Assembly (NCBI GenBank): GCA_029243025.1
Contig: JAQWSU010000034.1
Coordinates: forward strand, 1 to 64,000
Source: Pirellulaceae bacterium
GTDB taxonomy: Bacteria > Planctomycetota > Planctomycetia > Pirellulales > Pirellulaceae
Length of the DNA: 64,000 bases
Direction of reading: 5' to 3'
The notes below the pieces were generated by a model. That model ran no database searches, had not been told where the DNA came from, and saw nothing but the letters and a program-made list of their open reading frames with translations. This document shows positions 11,684-64,000 of the stretch, piece by piece; position 1 is the first letter of the stretch, and every line of letters starts with the position of its first letter. The position numbers and the translations under genes are program-made.

Positions 11684-12625
11684 TCACTTTTTTTCTACCG
11701 GAGCAGTATCCTCAAGTGGATGCTTGACAACATTTGTCGCCAAGCCAACCGACTCAAGTAATCGGATCGTCGAATAAGTCACATCAAATTCCCACCACTT
11801 GTGTCCGTGAGCTGCGCAACGCTGATGCGCGTGATGATTGTTGTGCCAACCATCACCATTACTGATCAAAGCGAAGAGAATGTTGTTTCGACTTGAGTCC
11901 TTCGTATCGTAATTTTGATAGCCGTAAACGTGACCGAATGAGTTGACGGCCCAAGTAATGTGCCAAACCAGCACCGTACGCAGGAAAACACCCCAAACGA
12001 GTAAACTGACCCCTAGCTGAATTGCCCCCATCCATTCACGGGTCGTGCCCCACCCGATTCCAAAACCCACGCCAAAGATCAAAAGCGCATGCAAAATATA
12101 AAGCCAAAACCAATGAAGTTTCCGTTCACACCAGAAGTAGAAGGGATCCCGCAAGACATCTCGGCAATAGCGTTCGTAATGCACGGTAGAGTCGTGACTT
12201 CGATTCTTGACCAAAACCCACCCGACGTGTCCCCAAAACAGATTAACCAACGGACTATGGGGGTCCGGTTCCCGGTCGGAGTGCTGATGATGCAAGCGAT
12301 GGATCGCAACCCACCTCGCAGGCGAATCTTCCAAACAGCAGATCGCCAAGGTGACGACAACGTACTCCAACCACTTTGGCAACGTCAACGATCGGTGCGT
12401 CAACATGCGGTGGTAGGCAAGATTGATGCCAAGCGTCCCAAAGATATAGAGGCCGACCACACACAGCCCCACGCCCAACCAACTAAAACACCACGGCAAC
12501 AGCACCAACAAAGCCGCCAAGTGAATCAACACTAAATTTATCGCATAAGGCCAGTACAGTCGCATCGGATCTGTCGCCACTGGACGCGTCAAGCGATTTT
12601 CGTCCATCCCCCCAACTTTCTTCAT
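11684..12625 (-). CDS. Fatty-acid desaturase (acyl-CoA delta-9 type)
   Basis: A 313-residue integral membrane di-iron enzyme that introduces a double bond into fatty acyl chains. All three histidine boxes are present: HRMLTH, HRLHHQHSD and HNNHHAHQ, separated by hydrophobic segments such as LIHLAALLVLLPWCF. The start at 12625 is chosen because GGGAGG lies just upstream; an upstream ATG at 12664 would add 13 residues. The order of boxes and length fit the stearoyl-CoA desaturase-like bacterial group. It lies 114 bases upstream of the carbamoyltransferase on the same strand and may be co-transcribed with it. Confidence 0.92.
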   Translation of the reverse strand: MKKVGGMDENRLTRPVATDPMRLYWPYAINLVLIHLAALLVLLPWCFSWLGVGLCVVGLYIFGTLGINLAYHRMLTHRSLTLPKWLEYVVVTLAICCLEDSPARWVAIHRLHHQHSDREPDPHSPLVNLFWGHVGWVLVKNRSHDSTVHYERYCRDVLRDPFYFWCERKLHWFWLYILHALLIFGVGFGIGWGTTREWMGAIQLGVSLLVWGVFLRTVLVWHITWAVNSFGHVYGYQNYDTKDSSRNNILFALISNGDGWHNNHHAHQRCAAHGHKWWEFDVTYSTIRLLESVGLATNVVKHPLEDTAPVEKK

Positions 12626-54180: not shown

Positions 54181-57100
54181 TTATTCGCTGGCGGCATCAG
54201 AATTCGTCTGTGAACTTTGATTTTGTTCGATTTTGATCGAACGGTCCGATTCGGTCATCGGTGTGGTGGTCGTCGTTCCATCTGGCCAACGTACCACAAT
54301 CTGCTCCAAACGACGTTGGGAGTCAGAGGTAAAAAACAGCGTGGGCGGTGATTGAGAAAGGTAGCCACCACCAGCGGAAAGTTCATTGGTAACAACTGGG
54401 CCTTGGCTATAGTGTGCGATCACCTTGGCCCCAATCGCCCTCGGATTACCTGCCGAACCAAGCAGCCGCACAGCAGTCCACTTCTGTTGTTCTGGTGCAA
54501 CGCGATGAAAGACATAAACGGGTCCATCATTGGTCGCAATACATAATTCTGGGCAAGCATCACCATTCATATCCACGCGACATAACGAAGTCGCATCTCC
54601 AGGCACTACAATACCACTTTGATGGGCAGGCAGTGGGACAAACCGTCCATTACCTTGACCGATCAGAAGCAAGCTCACTCCTCCATCCGCACGTCCCGTC
54701 TCAGCCTGTGGTCCAAAAAAGTTTTGTGCCACAACAAGATCTGCGAAGGCGTCGCCATTCGCGTCACAAACAGAAAGTCCAAAAATTGGCGCTACCTGGG
54801 CCATGACGGGCAGCGGAACAAATTCAAAATTGTCATTTCCTTGATTCAACCACACCCCACTGCTCAGTAACGTGGCTTCGTATCGATGTGCCGACGTCAG
54901 TTTCGATTCCGTATAGATTTCGTCAAGTGAAGCGATGGCAAAGTCATGAAATCGAGTAAATTTATCACCTAAAAACGGCATTGCATTGGTTGAGCAACTC
55001 TTCCCTCGGACCGGAAAGAGCGTTTCATCTTCGAATTCAGCTTCGACCAAATGAAATTGTCCCGATTGTTCAAAATCACCGTAATACAACAAGGCAGGCT
55101 GTTCGGCACTGGCATGATATTTTGTATTCCAGCCTTGATTCCCCACCGCGTAATCGAGATCCCCATCATTGTCGAAGTCATGGGGGATCACACTATTGAA
55201 CCAGCCAGACGTGCCCTGGAACGCACGCTGCGTTTGCTCGAGTCGTCCTTTCTGATTGCCAAATCGCATAACGGGCCCCCACTCGGTGGTGACAATCAAA
55301 TCGATCCATTGATCGCCGTCACTGTCTGACCACAGGGCACTCGTAACGAGGCCAGGGCGCACCAAACCCGGTGCTAAATCGGCAGTCACATCAAGAAATT
55401 TCCCCCCATTGTTTTGCAGCAAATAGCTTCGAGGCGAAAGCGGATACTTTCCTGGGACCACGCGCCCACCCACAAACAAATCCAGATCTCCATCACGATC
55501 GAAATCCGCAGCAGCTACAACGCTACCGCTGGTCTTCATAGCAGGCAGCGTCTCTCGGGGCGCTCGTTCAAATCCTCCTTGACCATCATTTAGATAGAGT
55601 CGGTCATGCAAGATTTCGTCACCGGGCTCGCATTCAACTCCGCCGCTGACGATGTAGAGGTCCAAATCGTTGTCACCATCAGAATCGAAAAAGAGGGGGG
55701 CCATATCCTCGACCGATGCTTCTTTACTCCAGGGCCCCGCCGATTTTTCCAGGAAACCTCCCTGCCCATCATTGATCAAGAGTCGACCGGCTTGCCCCGA
55801 CGCTCCTGCGACGAAAAGATCATCATCTCCGTCCGCATCGACATCCGCCCACGCCATCCCCGGGCCCAACTGAGAGAGTTGATTCGGCAGCAGCGGCTGT
55901 CGAGCATAATCATTGAATGGCGTCTCTTCGTGCTGGACGTGGGCAAGTAACGGAACCGATTGAAACAGTGCCTCCTGCTTGGACACCGAAGGCTTTCTAC
56001 CCAAAGATTTTGTTGAGGTTTCCGTGACGATGTAAAATTGGTCGACCGGCAAATCACCGTAGATTTGACGGTGCCCGTTTGGCCAAATCACTTCGAGTTC
56101 TTCCACGCGTTCGCATTCGCCAACACCAAAATGGACCAGCGGTTGATTGGAAGCCATAAAGCCCTGGCAATTGGAGAGCTGGCGCCATTGCATCCCATCG
56201 GACGTCTTAATACCTACGGTGGCACCCAATCCAAATCGGTTATCCGTTTCGCCCTGTAACCGCAAGGTAATTCGGTGGCTATCGGATGTTTGATTTCGAT
56301 AGACCGCCGGAGCTTCCTCGGCATTGTTAACAATCACATCGAGATCGCCGTCGCAATCCAGATCGCCTAAGGCGGCGCCGTAGCTGACTCGTGCCTCGCC
56401 CAGACCCCACTGCCCTTTCATATCTTCGAACCGCAGATCCCCCGTATTCCGAAAGGCCAAATTCGGATCTCGTCTTTGGGGCGAATCAAGCCAGACTTGA
56501 ATTTTTTCCGCCTCGGTTTTGGCTTGATTAGAAAGATTACGCAAATCACTGTTGGTCCAATCCCTGTTCATTCCATTCGTGACAAATAGATCGACCCAGC
56601 CGTCTTCGTCCAGGTCGGCGAACTTAAGAGACCAGGTCCAATCCGTATTTGCGACACCAGCCAATTGGGCGATTTCCATGAAACGATCAGTACCTGTGTT
56701 TAAATAGAGCGCGTTTCGCATGTACTGTCGGGGAGTTGGATGAGTCAAAAACCAACTTGTGGTTGACATGTCCCCCATCGAGGCCTTCTGCTTGTAATGA
56801 CTGGTCCCCGACATATCAGATCCCATCAGATCAAACCATCCATCATTGTTGATATCGGCCACATCCGACCCCATTGAATACCAGGGCGTGTGTGGTAAAG
56901 CCTTTGGAGCCACATCGGTGAACGTGCCATCACCATTGTTTTGATAGAGTTGGTCCGGACTGTAAAAATCATTCGACACATAAAGATCCAGGTGACCGTC
57001 CTGGTTGAAATCCCACCAATTAGCGGACAATCCCCAATAGGGGCCCACGAGTCCCGCATCGCGACTCACATCGGTAAACGTTCCATCCCCTTCGTTTCGA

Positions 57101-57972
57101 TAGAGGTGATCGTATTGCGCTGCCTTGACGATTCGCCGCCCACCTTCGGAATCGACAATCACGTCAACAAACTCACGATCCCCCTCAGGAATGAAATAAC
57201 TTCCGTCCGGACGTATTTGAGGAGCCGCCGGCGGTTCGGTCGGTTCAACGCGATTGGTCACCAAATAAACATCTAAATCACCATCGCGATCGTAATCCGC
57301 AAAAGCTGCCATCACGCTGGCACCTTGAAAGTCGAGACCGGCTTCTCTCGCCCGATCCTCGAAATGACCGGCCCCATCATTGATGAATAACGCATTGGGT
57401 TGCTCACTATTGCAGACGTAGAGATCCAAATCCCCATCGCTGTCAATGTCTATAAAGGTGGCACCCTGCGCTTGCGGAAGGCCTGACAAACCGGCCTGTT
57501 CCGTGATATCCTCAAACCGAAATGACCCAAGATTACGATAGAGTCGGCTGCCCACATTCGGCTGGGTCAAATACACATCCGGCAACAGGTCTCCGTCGCA
57601 GTCGCCAAGACCTATCCCACCACCGGGCAGCGAATTATAGATTTTCAACTGATAATCTGGACCGGGCTTCCAATTGTGCGCGAAATCTAACCCCGTCTCG
57701 CTGACGGGCAACGCAGCAAACCGTTTCTCCTGATCGCGGGACAGCCGAACCGGCAACCGAGCCGCTCGTAGGCCATCCTCCAATTCGTTCCATTCAAAAT
57801 CAGGCAGAATTGGAAGAGGCTTGCCCGGCTGTTCCCTGTGACTCGGCTGTTCCCTGTGACTCGACGGTTCACTGTGACTGGTGCTCGTTGAGTCACAGCC
57901 GGTCAGCGCACAACAGACCAACATCAAACAAGAAACTTGAGGAAGAACGCCGTGGAGCTTACAACTAACCAT
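54181..57972 (-). CDS. FG-GAP/ASPIC-UnbV (CRTAC1-family) lipoprotein, double-module
   Basis: A 1263-residue lipoprotein with lipobox LTGC (Cys26). A hydrophilic linker with three 18-bp repeats (SHREQP-like) follows. The body has two modules. In each, calcium-binding FG-GAP/VCBS repeats (DIDSDGDLDLYVCN, DYDRDGDLDVYL, DFNQDGHLDLYVSN, DVDADGDDDLFVAG, DFDRDGDLDLFVGG) precede an ASPIC/UnbV domain (GLGATVGIKTSDGMQWRQLS and NPRAIGAKVIAHYSQGP, with VIWPNGHRQ and VVRWPDGTT). It is likely surface-anchored and calcium-stabilised, binding ligands or cells. Its start is 20 bases after the preceding gene's stop, so the two are co-transcribed. Confidence 0.92.
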   Translation of the reverse strand: MVSCKLHGVLPQVSCLMLVCCALTGCDSTSTSHSEPSSHREQPSHREQPGKPLPILPDFEWNELEDGLRAARLPVRLSRDQEKRFAALPVSETGLDFAHNWKPGPDYQLKIYNSLPGGGIGLGDCDGDLLPDVYLTQPNVGSRLYRNLGSFRFEDITEQAGLSGLPQAQGATFIDIDSDGDLDLYVCNSEQPNALFINDGAGHFEDRAREAGLDFQGASVMAAFADYDRDGDLDVYLVTNRVEPTEPPAAPQIRPDGSYFIPEGDREFVDVIVDSEGGRRIVKAAQYDHLYRNEGDGTFTDVSRDAGLVGPYWGLSANWWDFNQDGHLDLYVSNDFYSPDQLYQNNGDGTFTDVAPKALPHTPWYSMGSDVADINNDGWFDLMGSDMSGTSHYKQKASMGDMSTTSWFLTHPTPRQYMRNALYLNTGTDRFMEIAQLAGVANTDWTWSLKFADLDEDGWVDLFVTNGMNRDWTNSDLRNLSNQAKTEAEKIQVWLDSPQRRDPNLAFRNTGDLRFEDMKGQWGLGEARVSYGAALGDLDCDGDLDVIVNNAEEAPAVYRNQTSDSHRITLRLQGETDNRFGLGATVGIKTSDGMQWRQLSNCQGFMASNQPLVHFGVGECERVEELEVIWPNGHRQIYGDLPVDQFYIVTETSTKSLGRKPSVSKQEALFQSVPLLAHVQHEETPFNDYARQPLLPNQLSQLGPGMAWADVDADGDDDLFVAGASGQAGRLLINDGQGGFLEKSAGPWSKEASVEDMAPLFFDSDGDNDLDLYIVSGGVECEPGDEILHDRLYLNDGQGGFERAPRETLPAMKTSGSVVAAADFDRDGDLDLFVGGRVVPGKYPLSPRSYLLQNNGGKFLDVTADLAPGLVRPGLVTSALWSDSDGDQWIDLIVTTEWGPVMRFGNQKGRLEQTQRAFQGTSGWFNSVIPHDFDNDGDLDYAVGNQGWNTKYHASAEQPALLYYGDFEQSGQFHLVEAEFEDETLFPVRGKSCSTNAMPFLGDKFTRFHDFAIASLDEIYTESKLTSAHRYEATLLSSGVWLNQGNDNFEFVPLPVMAQVAPIFGLSVCDANGDAFADLVVAQNFFGPQAETGRADGGVSLLLIGQGNGRFVPLPAHQSGIVVPGDATSLCRVDMNGDACPELCIATNDGPVYVFHRVAPEQQKWTAVRLLGSAGNPRAIGAKVIAHYSQGPVVTNELSAGGGYLSQSPPTLFFTSDSQRRLEQIVVRWPDGTTTTTPMTESDRSIKIEQNQSSQTNSDAASE
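57826..57879 (-). repeat. Three 18-bp repeats in the lipoprotein linker
   Basis: Two identical 18-bp copies (57826-57843, 57844-57861) and a diverged third (57862-57879) encode SHREQP, SHREQP and SHSEPS-like hexapeptides just after the lipobox. Length variation here would tune the linker without changing frame. Confidence 0.8.
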
Positions 57973-57992: not shown

Positions 57993-60269
57993 CTAATTTG
58001 TTGCGGGAAACTTCAACTCAGGTAACGGTCTCAAGCGAAAGCCCTCGAGACCTTCGGTAATTTCTACTGTTGAATCGATTGGTAGACCTTCGATTATCTG
58101 CTCCCCGGGACTACCCGGCCATTGAATTCGCACTTGAGCCACTCGATCTGCGTGTCCCAACCCAATTTCTTGCCGAATCGGCGATCCGCCGAAGCTACTC
58201 ACCGCCCCAACCGCACGGTGAAAACAATGCTTGCCACCCGGGCCATCCGTATAAACGCTGATACGAGCTCCCACGCCACGAGAATTGCTTTTTCGACCGC
58301 GCAGATAAACCGTCAAAAAGTGGTGTTCGTTTCCTGGATTGAGAAACAGTGCATTATGAAAACGATCCCCTGGATAGAAGCCGCCTAATTGATGATAGAT
58401 ATCTTGATCTCCATCATTGTCGAGATCGGCAAAGGCAACGCCATGGCCCTTCTGTAAATGGCCGAAACCGCCAGCAATTGAGACGTCTTGAAAACGTTTC
58501 CCGCCGTCATTTCGCAACATGACATTCGGCATCAATGCGGCGAAATCAGGTCGCCCGGTGGTCAAATAAATATCAAGAAACCCGTCATTGTCGAGGTCAC
58601 CGAAATTCGCCCCCATTGGCAAATAGGCATGATCCAAACCAACCGCCTTGGTCACATCCTCAAAGGTTCCATCTCGTAAATTTCGATACAAGCAAGGCGA
58701 TACGCCCCGATGAGGCAATCCCCAGTAGTCGGCGGCAACATCCGCATTGGTCGATTGGTAAGCAGCGACAAACAGATCGAGCCACTGATCATTGTCATAG
58801 TCAAAGAACCAGCAAGCAAAACTCTGTTGGCGCGGATCACTGACCAAAGCTTGTTCCGCGACGTCCGTAAATGTTCCGTCAGCATTATTGCGATAAAGTC
58901 GATTCACGCCGCGATTCGAAACATACAGGTCGACGTCACCATCATTGTCGTAATCCGCCGAGGCAACACCTTTGCAATAACGGTCATTGCAGACCCCTGC
59001 TTGGGATGCAATATCGAGAAACGTCCCATCGCCGTTGTTTCGAAATAGCTGAGATGGAAAATCACCTGCACCATTTTCGATTTCGACACGTGATTCGTTG
59101 CCCACATACAGATCCAAATCACCGTCGTTGTCCATATCGAGCCAAGTCGCCGCCTGAGTCGGATAAGCCACTTCCGACAGACCGGCGATTGCCGTAACAT
59201 CCCGAAAGTTTCCTTTGCCGTCATTCGCGAGCAACGAGTTCCTCATCTGCCCTTGATCACCAAGCCATGCACCGCGAAGCACTAACACATCCATGTCACC
59301 ATCGTTGTCGAAGTCCGCGGCAAGACAATTCAATCCCCCCAACTGCTTGTTCACCTGCGATCGTTGACTCACGTCACGATAGCCGGATCGACCGTCGCTT
59401 TCGTAATAGGTCAAACTGCCAGCCGGGTCATAAGTCGATGTCATGACATCTAACACACCATCGCCATTAAAATCTTCGGTAATTGCTCCACCGCAAAGAT
59501 TAAAGGTGTCGACCCCCAACTTCCCGGCGACGTCGACAAAGCGTCCAATCTGATATTCGGATTGCATTCTCTCAGCGGGTAGGCGGTACTGTTCAGGAAT
59601 CGCATTCGGGTATTCGTTCGTCGCCATCGCGGAGACATTCAACAGCCAGGCTGCCTCCAAGTCACGAGGCGTCATCGCCAAGAGTTTAAGCAGTGTTTCT
59701 CTTGCATGGAGCATCGGTGAGGGTTCCGAGTGAATTCCACCCTCTGCCAACGGAAACAGACAGCATTCTCGATTATGTTTTTCGACACAATTTCGATATT
59801 CCGCCTCACGCAAATACACCAAGGCTTGTAACTTAATCATGGAAGGTGACAACTTGCCTTGGTGTTTTTTGACCTGCTCGAAGGCGGTGCGAATGCTGTC
59901 CGCCGCGTCGTCGATCGATCCAAGTCGCAATTGATTCCAGCAAAGCTGAAGCAATAAATTGACCCGATCCTGATGCGGCACCTCAGATTGTTGCAACGCA
60001 GCTTGAAGACGAGGAACCTGGCCAGTTCCAAGATAGGCATTTTCTGAGTCCGCTATCTGCTCTGCGATCAACTTGAACTCTTCTAGATGTATTTCCTCGA
60101 CGCTTGCCTCGACGGGATTGATTTGATTGTTATCTGTTTCTCGCCCGTCATCGCCCGGTTTGCAACCGGCGCATAACACAATCATGATCAGGCACAGGCG
60201 GATCAATTCACCTCTCAACCAAAGTTTGCAGTGAGCACAAATCATCATCAGGCGGCGCCAGAGCCGCAT
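57993..60269 (-). CDS. TPR-like plus FG-GAP/ASPIC-UnbV (CRTAC1-family) lipoprotein
   Basis: About 758 residues, started at 60269 (MRLWRRLMMIC), ten bases after the preceding stop. A signal with lipobox VLCAGC precedes a helical, TPR-like N-terminal region (RVNLLLQLCWNQLRLGSIDD, LREAEYRNCVEKHNRE). FG-GAP repeats follow (DFNGDGVLDVMTS, DFDNDGDMDVLVLR, DMDNDGDLDLYVGN, DYDNDGDVDLYVSN, DLDNDGFLDIYLTT) and the ASPIC/UnbV domain ends the protein (NSRGVGARISVYTDGPGGKH, RIQWPGSPGEQ). Second of three tandem genes of this kind on the minus strand. Exported; molecular partner unknown. Confidence 0.9.
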   Translation of the reverse strand: MRLWRRLMMICAHCKLWLRGELIRLCLIMIVLCAGCKPGDDGRETDNNQINPVEASVEEIHLEEFKLIAEQIADSENAYLGTGQVPRLQAALQQSEVPHQDRVNLLLQLCWNQLRLGSIDDAADSIRTAFEQVKKHQGKLSPSMIKLQALVYLREAEYRNCVEKHNRECCLFPLAEGGIHSEPSPMLHARETLLKLLAMTPRDLEAAWLLNVSAMATNEYPNAIPEQYRLPAERMQSEYQIGRFVDVAGKLGVDTFNLCGGAITEDFNGDGVLDVMTSTYDPAGSLTYYESDGRSGYRDVSQRSQVNKQLGGLNCLAADFDNDGDMDVLVLRGAWLGDQGQMRNSLLANDGKGNFRDVTAIAGLSEVAYPTQAATWLDMDNDGDLDLYVGNESRVEIENGAGDFPSQLFRNNGDGTFLDIASQAGVCNDRYCKGVASADYDNDGDVDLYVSNRGVNRLYRNNADGTFTDVAEQALVSDPRQQSFACWFFDYDNDQWLDLFVAAYQSTNADVAADYWGLPHRGVSPCLYRNLRDGTFEDVTKAVGLDHAYLPMGANFGDLDNDGFLDIYLTTGRPDFAALMPNVMLRNDGGKRFQDVSIAGGFGHLQKGHGVAFADLDNDGDQDIYHQLGGFYPGDRFHNALFLNPGNEHHFLTVYLRGRKSNSRGVGARISVYTDGPGGKHCFHRAVGAVSSFGGSPIRQEIGLGHADRVAQVRIQWPGSPGEQIIEGLPIDSTVEITEGLEGFRLRPLPELKFPATN

Positions 60270-60279
60270 CGGGGTGTTT

Positions 60280-63200
60280 TCAGTTAAACGAGTTTCGATA
60301 CGCCTTTTTCTGTCGATATAACCGCAGGCGGTCTTCAATGGGTTTCACAAGTGCGGGGCCGCCGCTTTGCCCGGCCAATTGTACGGCTTGGCTCGCAAAT
60401 TCAACCGCCTTAATAAACTGACCGACCTCCGCGTAAGCTGCTGCCAGAGTATCCAATTCATTCGCAGTCGGATCATCCGATTGCTGACATACATGTTCCG
60501 CGATTTGCACGGCTCGTTGACCATTTCGCAATTCATCGTCGTCCATCGTTGCGAGCAGCCATGCGAGATCGTTGGCCGATCGCATTAGCTCGGGTCGGAT
60601 TGCGATCGCTTCTTCATAAGCCCTGATGGAATTTTCAATCTTACCCAAGGCCAGATTAATCGCGCCCAACTGCCAATGGGCGAGGGCATCCTCACGCAAT
60701 GTAAGGACTTGTCGCATGTCCTGCTCGGCTTTACTCAAGTCACCCATTTGCAAGCGTGCCAGGCCAAGCTTATACCGCAATTCAGGATCTTTGGGATTCG
60801 TTCCCAAAGCAACCTCAAAATGGGGTGCGGCAGCTTGTCCCTTATTGAAACCAAGCAGGACTCCCCCTAATTCGATGTGGGCTTGCCGATTTTCCGGTTC
60901 AAGTTCCAGGGCCAGCGTAAACGCCTCAGCCGCTTGACGAAACTCCCGTTTATCCAGAGAAATTGCACCGAGGAGGTTGAGTAATCCAGCAGACAAATAT
61001 TCGGGCTGTTCCTGCCGATGACGGACTAATTCCTGGATGTATTTCTGCGCCTCATCCGATCGATCGCCGTCCACCAGTTTCAACGCAATATTAAGCGGTG
61101 TAGAACCAGATGGCCTCAGTAACCAACGGCCAGGAAAGGGGATCGCTGCAGCGAGCACCTGCTGCCTGGTTGAGTCAAGCAACTCGGAATCGGACAAGAT
61201 CGTATCGACGGATACCGGCCCCTTGTACACCACTCGTAAACGACCTTGTTGATCGATCAGAAAGCTACTTGGCATTGGCAAAGGCCGCTGCCGACTCAAC
61301 AACGATCTCTGCACAACATCAAATTGCGTTGCCAACCGCTCCGTACCCCATCCGTTTCGAAACGGCAGATCCATTTCGGTCAACAAGGAAACAACTTTTG
61401 ACTGAGGTCCGTTTACCGCGTGGTTTTCCTGATCCACATTGATTGTAATCACCTCCACGCCCGCGTCACTCAAACGATCAGCTTGCCGCTTCCATTCGGT
61501 TAGTTCGGACAAACAAGGTTGGCACCAACTGGCCCACAAATTGACAAGTCGCGGTCGCTCCCCGGGAGATGTCAGTGGGACTGGTTCACCTTGCAAAGAT
61601 TTCGCCTCCCAACTTGGCAACGGAATCGGATTCAGCAGTACGATACGCGCCTTATCGCTGATCGGCGGCGCAGAGAATTCGGCGGGCTTTAACTCACGAA
61701 ACTCCTGCGGAACCTGCCAGACATCGACGGACTCCTGTCCTTCCACCACTTGATAAAATCGATCCGGTTCCAGGTTGACGAAAGCCTGTCGCTGACCATT
61801 AGGCCAAAAGACGATTAGCTTTTCAATTTGACGAGCGACACCCAACCCAAAATGCATCCATTTTGTGGATTGCGACAAGTAACCCTCTCCAGCCCGCAGA
61901 GTTTGCAATTGTTTATTGCCCAAGTCATCAATGACAACCACCCGCGCGCCAATGGCATCGCGATTACAATTGACTCCCTCCAACTTAACGGCGACATAAT
62001 GCTGTTCACCTTCCAATTCGTTCCGCACATAACGCACCTGGGGGCCGGAACGATTTGCGATCCACAGATCAACATCCCCGTCATAGTCCCAGTCAGCCAG
62101 GGATAACACGCGACCATCATCCATGAAATCGAGTCCGGTTGCCGCTGATACATTCGCGAACCTGACTCCACCCGTGTTTAGAAAGCAACAGTTTCTTTCA
62201 TGCCCACTTAGCGAACGTCCTGATCGGAGCAACGCATTGATCGCATTCCACCCCAAGTCGTAACGAATAATCTCGGACGTGGAAGCATGCTCTTCTGGAG
62301 ACTGCGCCACGACCTGGCGCCACCAGAAACTTCACAAATCGTTATTATTATCCGCAGTCACAAAGCCATTCGTCACATACAAATCCCGCCAACCATCATT
62401 GTTCAAGTCGACAAAAAGTGAGCCCCAGGCCCAGCGGCCCATGGTGACACCCAAATCAACGCTGCGATCCGAAAACCGCCCATCACCAAGATTCTCAAAC
62501 AACGAATTACCGCGTGCATGGCGCTGAAATCCGACCAGGTCTTCCCTTTCCGCTTGGGGTTTAAACTGTTGCTGTCGCGTAATCCGACTGCCCGCAGACG
62601 AGAACATATTACTGACGTACAAATCCATTTTCCCATCATTATTGTGGTCCCCCCAAGCTGCCGACATCCCTGGACCAATGTCTTCCACTTCCGCCACCGG
62701 AGCGACGTCCACAAAAAAGCCTTCTTCATTGCGATAGAGATTATTTCGCCCGAAATCATTGGCAACATAAAGATCAAAATCACCATCGTTATCGAAATCG
62801 TCCCACACTGACGCCAAACTGAATCGCAGATTATTTTCATCTAAGCCAATTTCCTGAGTCACGTCTCGGAAGACCCAATCGCCCTCATTCCGAAACATAA
62901 AATTCGAGCCACCATTATTTGCGTCGTGGTACGGCATGGGGCTAACAAAAATATCGGTGGGCCGAGTTTGGGCCGCTGCACTGTATCCACACACATACAG
63001 GTCAAGGTTGCCATCGGAGTCGTAATCAATCGCGTTAAACGAAAACAGCCGGCTATCCGTCGATATCCTATTCCTCAACGGAAATCGTCCCGTCCCATCA
63101 TTCTCATGCAAAAGCACTTCGGTACTTTGGGTAAGCAATAAGTCTTGGTCACCATCGTTATCAAGATCCACCCACAATGCGGCGCGGGTACTGTCAAGCC

Positions 63201-64000
63201 AATCGACCCCCGCCGCTTTCGATTCATCGACAAGTGATCCATCCGCTTGCCGAACAAGCAAACGATTCGGTAAAGCGGAAGGTTGACAAAGATAGATATC
63301 ATCCAGTCCGTCACCGTTTGCATCCCCGATCGCCATACCATTCCCGCGTCCTTCGACACCAATCGACCCCTCCAGGTTTCCATACCAATAGTCTCGACCA
63401 TGGATTAATTGGCTGTCTAACGCGGCTAGTCCCTCAAGGGCCGAACGTGTGCAATCGGAAAACAACATGGGACTGTTCGTGCTAACGACAACCTCCTCGT
63501 AATCGTCAACCCGTATCGATTTCAAACGAGGTGGTGTCGCTTGGCCAAAAATCGCCCAGCTGCAATCCCAGCGAGCATTGACCTGAGCCTGCCCTGTTTC
63601 GGCTGCTCCAACAAACTCGCAAAGCACCGTGGTCCTGGCGGCGTCTGCTTGCAAATCAACTTTGACAATCTTAAATTTGTAACGAAGTTCCGCATCTTCC
63701 TTGAACAGTTTCCGCAGGCTCCGCAAGTCGTCTGCAAAACCTTGTGCACCCTTTCGTCCTGCATTTTCCTTTTCCGCTTCATCGGGCCGCCGCACCAGAA
63801 ACGGCGGTTCGTCGACCGTCGTTTCCAAAGCCGGTCTGAGCTGCCCTCCTTGGTACGCTTCCGTACAAAGTTCCTTAAGTTCGCTCGAATTGGCTAAGGG
63901 AGGATGACTCACGACGCCACCAATCTTCTTCAATTGCCGCATCGCCAAATCACTAAACCGTTCGGAATCCCAACCATCGACCAGGGGATCTTCCCGAGCA
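60280..64000 (-). CDS. Candidate selenoprotein: FG-GAP/ASPIC-UnbV (CRTAC1-family) protein with TlpA-like thioredoxin and TPR domains, 5' end outside window
   Basis: One frame is open from the window edge to 60280 except for TGA at 62332-62334, giving about 1239 visible residues. Before the TGA are FG-GAP repeats (DANGDGLDDIYLCQ, DLDNDGDQDLLLT, DFDNDGDFDLYVAN) ending in YVTNGFVTADNNNDL. After it comes SFWWRQVVAQSPEEHA, then GRSLSGHERNCCFLNTGG, an FG-GAP unit (DWDYDGDVDLWIAN) and ASPIC/UnbV (RDAIGARVVVIDDLG, VFWPNGQRQ). A thioredoxin domain with WASWCQPCLSEL and about six TPRs end the protein. The part after TGA lacks a signal peptide and begins mid-domain, so an independent gene from GTG at 62308 is unlikely. 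TGA terminates other genes here, so recoding would be local. Nonsense mutation or sequencing error remains possible. Confidence 0.8.
62293..62334 (-). promoter_or_regulatory. Candidate bacterial SECIS element with the in-frame UGA
   Basis: Counting U of UGA as 1, GCGCCA (15-20) pairs with UGGCGC (26-31), leaving the apical loop GGUCG (21-25). An outer stem UUCUGG (7-12) pairs with CCAGAA (37-42). The E. coli fdhF SECIS also has GGUC in its apical loop, at 22-25 by my count. Position, loop content and stem length fit a bSECIS; no folding program was run. Confidence 0.65.

Follow-up and report, generated by a model that had tools for sequence, protein, structure and literature searches.

A candidate selenoprotein family of planctomycetes combining CRTAC1-like, UnbV_ASPIC and TlpA-like domains

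CRTAC1/ASPIC-UnbV FG-GAP proteins are composed of an FG-GAP propeller followed by the UnbV_ASPIC domain. The protein studied here, which is encoded in a window of 64,000 nucleotides (positions 1 to 64,000 of contig JAQWSU010000034.1 of a Pirellulaceae bacterium), has the same order, but it differs from them by a putative selenocysteine (Sec) site placed after the propeller repeats and before UnbV and by the presence of TlpA and TPR domains. With the TlpA/ResA-like thioredoxins, which include the UGC-containing TlpA selenoprotein family (PMC13188914), it shares a WCxxC TlpA-like domain and apparent export. Unlike that selenoprotein family, however, its TlpA domain has a plain CxxC, and the Sec precedes it by about 270 residues and is not part of the thioredoxin fold. 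The UshA-like, TonB-dependent receptor and DUF1573 selenoproteins have little or no thioredoxin character. They share bacterial SECIS/SelB decoding with the window protein and, as inferred from their names, are likewise exported or on the surface, whereas their domains and Sec motifs are unrelated and none of them has FG-GAP or UnbV.

An inventory of May 2026 comprises 119 prokaryotic selenoprotein families and subfamilies (PMC13188914). Its Table 1 contains neither the DLUS motif nor an entry for FG-GAP, UnbV or CRTAC1. In NCBIfam (June 2026), the Sec site is not covered by any model, and no report joining selenoprotein with UnbV was found in the open-access literature. The literature on selenoprotein together with CRTAC1 or FG-GAP consisted, judging from titles, of unrelated animal, clinical or food studies. 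Earlier notice cannot be excluded, since subscription papers, preprints and supplementary tables were outside the search, including the Porphyra planctomycete candidate list (PMC4807772, S9 Table). The deep-Sep filter requires Cys or known Sec homologues (PMC12013277). Because Cys forms are rare in the present family and other residues commonly replace Sec, filters of this type could miss such families.

The gene and its reading frame

The gene and its internal TGA are located as follows.

60280-64284 (window part 60280..64000), minus strand: selenoprotein gene, from one frame through the TGA and domain matches
62332..62334, minus strand: UGA codon for selenocysteine 651, from the same TGA column in 24 of 24 paralogues and many relatives

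An earlier note, made from the window alone, had described two apparent genes that share one frame and are split only by a TGA. This was confirmed on the minus strand: the ORFs 60280-62310 and 62332-63948 are in one frame and the TGA at 62334-62332 is the sole interruption. The codons between this TGA and the next possible start, the GTG at 62310, read SFWWRQV, the same seven that the note had given. When the contig was read past the window end, the full gene was found to encode 1,334 aa with Sec as residue 651. It starts with the ATG at contig position 64284, so 1,240 codons of it, counting the stop, lie in the window and form the C-terminal part. The terminal codon is also TGA (60282-60280). 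TGA is thus a real stop in this very gene, and its general reassignment fails to explain the internal TGA; a global code change, already excluded in the earlier note because TGA serves as a normal stop, is ruled out. Two other same-frame TGAs with long open sides, at 11686 (minus) and 31829 (plus), proved to be ordinary gene ends beside separate genes.

In Pfam searches, FG-GAP repeats were found before the TGA, and UnbV_ASPIC, AhpC-TSA/Redoxin (TlpA-like) and TPR matches after it. FG-GAP repeats followed by UnbV_ASPIC (PF13517, PF07593) satisfy the criterion for CRTAC1/ASPIC-UnbV membership, and the AhpC-TSA/Redoxin domain with CxxC satisfies that for TlpA/ResA-like proteins. A sequence match to CRTAC1 was also obtained (E 3.5e-8; human CRTAC1 structure 9etn). 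The N-terminus, CSFIAAGC, contains the lipobox-like sequence FIAAGC, judged by eye without a predictor, and export of the protein as a lipoprotein is inferred.

A tandem paralogue is located directly upstream, just past the window end (contig 64323-68393; L069:14324-18394). It is 67% identical over the compared 250 aa, has one in-frame TGA at the same site, and carries a hydrophobic segment at its N-terminus instead of the lipobox-like sequence. Two more FG-GAP/UnbV genes without in-frame TGA (window 57993-60338 and contig 54181-57972, minus) come after the selenoprotein gene on the same strand.

Evidence bearing on the internal TGA

A query of 250 aa spanning the TGA was used for the family search. 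In the source genome, 24 strong homologues were found, each with exactly one TGA in the matched stretch. The TGAs of all 24 align at one column in the motif DL-U-SFFWRQVVSQSP, in longer form DL-U-S-F-F-W-R-Q-V-V-S-Q-S-P. Many more TGA forms exist in relatives belonging to its family and order, with TGA retained in dozens of related genomes, and the top-scoring matches in a phylum scan of 392 genomes nearly all had one TGA. The gene is thus best placed in an extensive planctomycete selenoprotein family, apparently undescribed so far, of which the source genome has 24 copies. There is also a second subfamily of about 830 aa with the motif KPDG-U-(S/N/T)-C. One fragment, L124 (G118:C78:24884-25699), has three in-frame TGAs at fragment positions 49, 70 and 74, the first of which is at the Sec column; it is possibly a multi-Sec form.

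The source genome has the genes for Sec insertion. SelA was found with E 5.6e-143, selB, with the SelB winged-helix domain, adjoins selA, and the tRNA-Sec is 100 nt long with the anticodon TCA. The selD gene has one in-frame TGA of its own, which is common to many SelD proteins. The second-best tRNA-Sec match in this genome (L003) turned out to be a tRNA-Ser. A planctomycete origin of the genome was inferred from its planctomycete-type cytochrome/PSD gene and from the Phycisphaerales match L075. In the phylum scan, in which the SelA cut-off was E <= 1e-60 and genomes with strong TGA forms were counted by hand among the listed matches, SelA was present in 71 of the 74 genomes with strong TGA forms versus 241 of the 392 overall. 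Over two scans, strong TGA forms without SelA were found in five genomes (G084, G086, G247, G359 and G159), in four of which SelB was above the cut-off. In G003, whose TGA form is of the second subfamily, no more than a weak SelA match was obtained, but a tRNA-Sec is present. With a single exception, the SelA-negative cases tested thus had SelB or tRNA-Sec. The exception is G159, which carries the second-subfamily TGA form L174: none of SelA, SelB and tRNA-Sec was found in its assembly, which is 90% complete, and this remains unexplained.

A SECIS-like hairpin follows the internal TGA.

62304..62320, minus strand: SECIS-like hairpin GCGCCA-GGUCG-UGGCGC, starting 14 nt downstream of the first UGA base

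The typical hairpin of the family is GCGACA-GGUCG-UGUCGC, also 14 nt after the TGA. Across 43 sequences, 95.7% of the stem cells were paired, with compensatory changes at two pairs. In the same sequences no shuffle reached the observed covariation score, and few cells were changed; the high conservation of the site leaves covariation modest. At least five of the six pairs were present in 72 of 73 main-type Sec forms versus 3 of 20 homologues with other residues, and the terminal TGA of the gene is followed by only one of six. Synonymous codons follow the stem: Val+8 is GTG (35/35), Ser+9 is TCG (38/40), and Arg+5 is CGA or CGG, except for CGC where it faces a paired G, with L033 as the one exception. 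In the second subfamily the main-type register fits poorly (2.4 of 6 pairs) and a different hairpin is folded.

Codon choice was also constrained outside the hairpin. The base following the TGA was always A in main-type Sec forms, Ser+1 being AGY in 43 of 43 and never TCN, and Leu-1 was TTG in 38 of 42. This constraint is unexplained.

Cys homologues were sought by scanning the named genomes for a Cys codon at the Sec site, and two loci were found. L075, from a Phycisphaerales MAG, has TGC at the site in an uninterrupted 1,333-aa ORF with the same domains (DLCSFFWRQVVSLSP). It retains a perfect hairpin after the TGC, a relic that would be expected if TGA had changed to TGC recently. L076, with DLCSFFWRQVV, is likewise an uninterrupted ORF, of 1,147 aa, and L034 and L035 are more distant Cys homologues. 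In long homologues with neither Sec nor Cys, the residue at the site is E, D, A, Q or S.

The sequence-based criteria for a selenoprotein are thus satisfied: an in-frame UGA retained in homologues with conservation on both sides, a SECIS-like hairpin immediately 3' of it, SelA, SelB, SelD and tRNA-Sec all present in the source genome, and Cys at the Sec position in homologues, such forms being few. Although there is no protein-level evidence, we conclude with high confidence that the internal TGA encodes Sec. Actual Sec insertion is an inference; what was obtained by computation is the constancy of the TGA column, the presence of the Sec machinery and of the hairpin, the existence of Cys forms, and the finding that Sec, Cys699 and CxxC are kept or lost together (see below).

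Ordinary annotation would end a first protein at the TGA and start a second one at the GTG eight codons on. The GTG is constant in the 35 sequences with Val at this position, but this is because of stem pairing, which accounts for it without a start codon. An AGG lies only 2 nt before the GTG; at that distance it is too close to a start codon to be a ribosome site, as is generally known. In addition, the short amino acid stretch encoded from the TGA to the GTG is highly conserved, and retention of the TGA in 24 paralogues together with a SECIS-like hairpin would not be expected of a stop. The Cys orthologue L075, being one uninterrupted ORF, is direct evidence that both halves are parts of one protein. 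An ordinary stop is therefore very unlikely.

Readthrough of the UGA by other means, as Trp or Arg by a near-cognate tRNA or in a partly reassigned code, would result equally in a full-length protein. However, TGA is the normal end of the same gene, the genome has the full Sec machinery, and the hairpin goes with Sec and disappears where another residue is at the site. Moreover, Cys is the replacement in L075 and L076, and neither Trp nor Arg was seen at the Sec column among the aligned homologues. We regard this explanation as scarcely tenable. A single in-frame stop is the usual sign of a sequencing error or a decaying gene, but the TGA column is shared by 24 paralogues and recurs across many assemblies obtained independently, and the sequence is conserved over long stretches on either side, which rules out error, decay and chance.

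The earlier note had proposed a candidate new selenoprotein family member, unlike a decaying gene, and this proposal is supported. It had named as refuting results the absence of Sec machinery, a sense codon at the site in close relatives, and production of the halves as separate proteins. The machinery, the absence of which would have counted against Sec, was found in full; TGA was retained in close relatives, with no sense codon found; and both halves are joined in L075. The homologue alignment that it had called for showed a retained UGA column with Cys homologues. What goes beyond it is the multi-copy, phylum-wide extent of the family, the SECIS-like element and a coupled second redox centre.

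If the Sec reading is true, CRTAC1/UnbV would be a new selenoprotein family, in which Sec is outside the thioredoxin fold and tied to a separate CxxC domain on the same chain, and standard annotation would split many planctomycete genes in two. The presence of 24 paralogues of one selenoprotein family in a genome is a striking expansion; we did not find a comparable figure, without a systematic search. The Sec site also indicates where the active centre is, which makes it possible to test what FG-GAP/UnbV proteins do.

Redox residues and a proposed mechanism

Two further sites of the window protein are relevant to the role of the Sec.

62188..62190, minus strand: codon of Cys699, proposed resolving partner of Sec651, from the Cys column tally
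61513..61524, minus strand: CQPC (CxxC, residues 921-924) of the TlpA/ResA-like thioredoxin domain, from domain matches and the CxxC tally

The partner Cys, at +48 in the window protein, was present in 67 of 80 Sec forms versus 1 of the 20 forms in which a residue other than these two occupies the Sec site, that is, neither Sec nor Cys. The CxxC was tallied by alignment only in sequences long enough to include the TlpA domain, and was present in 71 of 71 long Sec forms versus 1 of 15 long forms with E, D, A, Q or S, nearly all of which have lost both the partner Cys and the CxxC. Of the two Cys forms of sufficient length, L075 has retained the partner Cys as well as the CxxC, and neither is left in L076. 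In a quick tree, the long non-Sec forms fell into roughly four independent loss events, of which one comprises a clade of 12 sequences, so the number of such events is overstated by these counts. The coupling was followed in three of the four losses; the L122 loss keeps CxxC.

These patterns suggest the following mechanism. SelB with Sec-tRNA(UCA) would recognise the short hairpin just 3' of the UGA and insert Sec651. The predicted product is an exported lipoprotein of 1,334 aa, in which the CRTAC1-like FG-GAP beta-propeller, the Sec site, UnbV_ASPIC, the TlpA/ResA-like thioredoxin domain and the TPRs are arranged in this order. Sec651 may be the reactive centre and form a selenenylsulfide with Cys699, and the CxxC of the attached TlpA domain may exchange electrons with the Sec651-Cys699 pair. 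The protein would then be a self-contained extracytoplasmic oxidoreductase. The direction of electron flow, the export and the substrate are inferred. The Sec651-Cys699 contact has not been shown, because the AlphaFold2 model built from three sequences was unusable (pLDDT 52 on average, falling to about 25 near the Sec site).

Such a Sec-Cys-TlpA relay within one exported lipoprotein is plausible and somewhat favoured by us. It remains possible, though we lean against it, that Sec is present outside a relay, as a metal-binding residue or a lone peroxidase-like centre, and that the TlpA domain serves another step. FG-GAP propellers are often metal-binding, the 651-699 contact lacks demonstration, and seven long Sec forms have the CxxC without the partner Cys. 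On the other hand, Sec, partner Cys and CxxC are lost together in most long homologues with other residues, and in the second subfamily, where the distant Cys is mostly absent, a Cys is found two residues after Sec instead (U-x-C).

Genomic neighbourhood

In the source genome (G000), 16 of the 24 members have, at a distance of no more than 6 kb, a gene whose product ends in a dockerin-like repeat plus PEP-CTERM tail. About 5 such neighbours would be expected, calculated from at least 150 such tails; this is a rough lower bound. A functional link between the Sec-CRTAC1 genes and these neighbours is only a suggestion. That the dockerin-like/PEP-CTERM surface proteins are partners of the Sec family is doubtful on present evidence. 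It is likewise speculative, and we think it unlikely, that there is an unrecognised extracytoplasmic selenium redox system of planctomycetes, in which many members of an expanded propeller-TlpA family would fold, oxidise or protect a neighbouring dockerin-like/PEP-CTERM surface protein and the family would be a main selenium consumer of these bacteria.

Neither the window gene nor its tandem paralogue is one of the 16, but a PEP-CTERM ORF of another type is located just upstream of the pair. The neighbours are exported proteins with varied N-terminal domains such as LamG and CBM9. Examples of the neighbourhood loci in the source genome are given below.

L153:4606-5946
L149:1848-3254
L157:4163-5341
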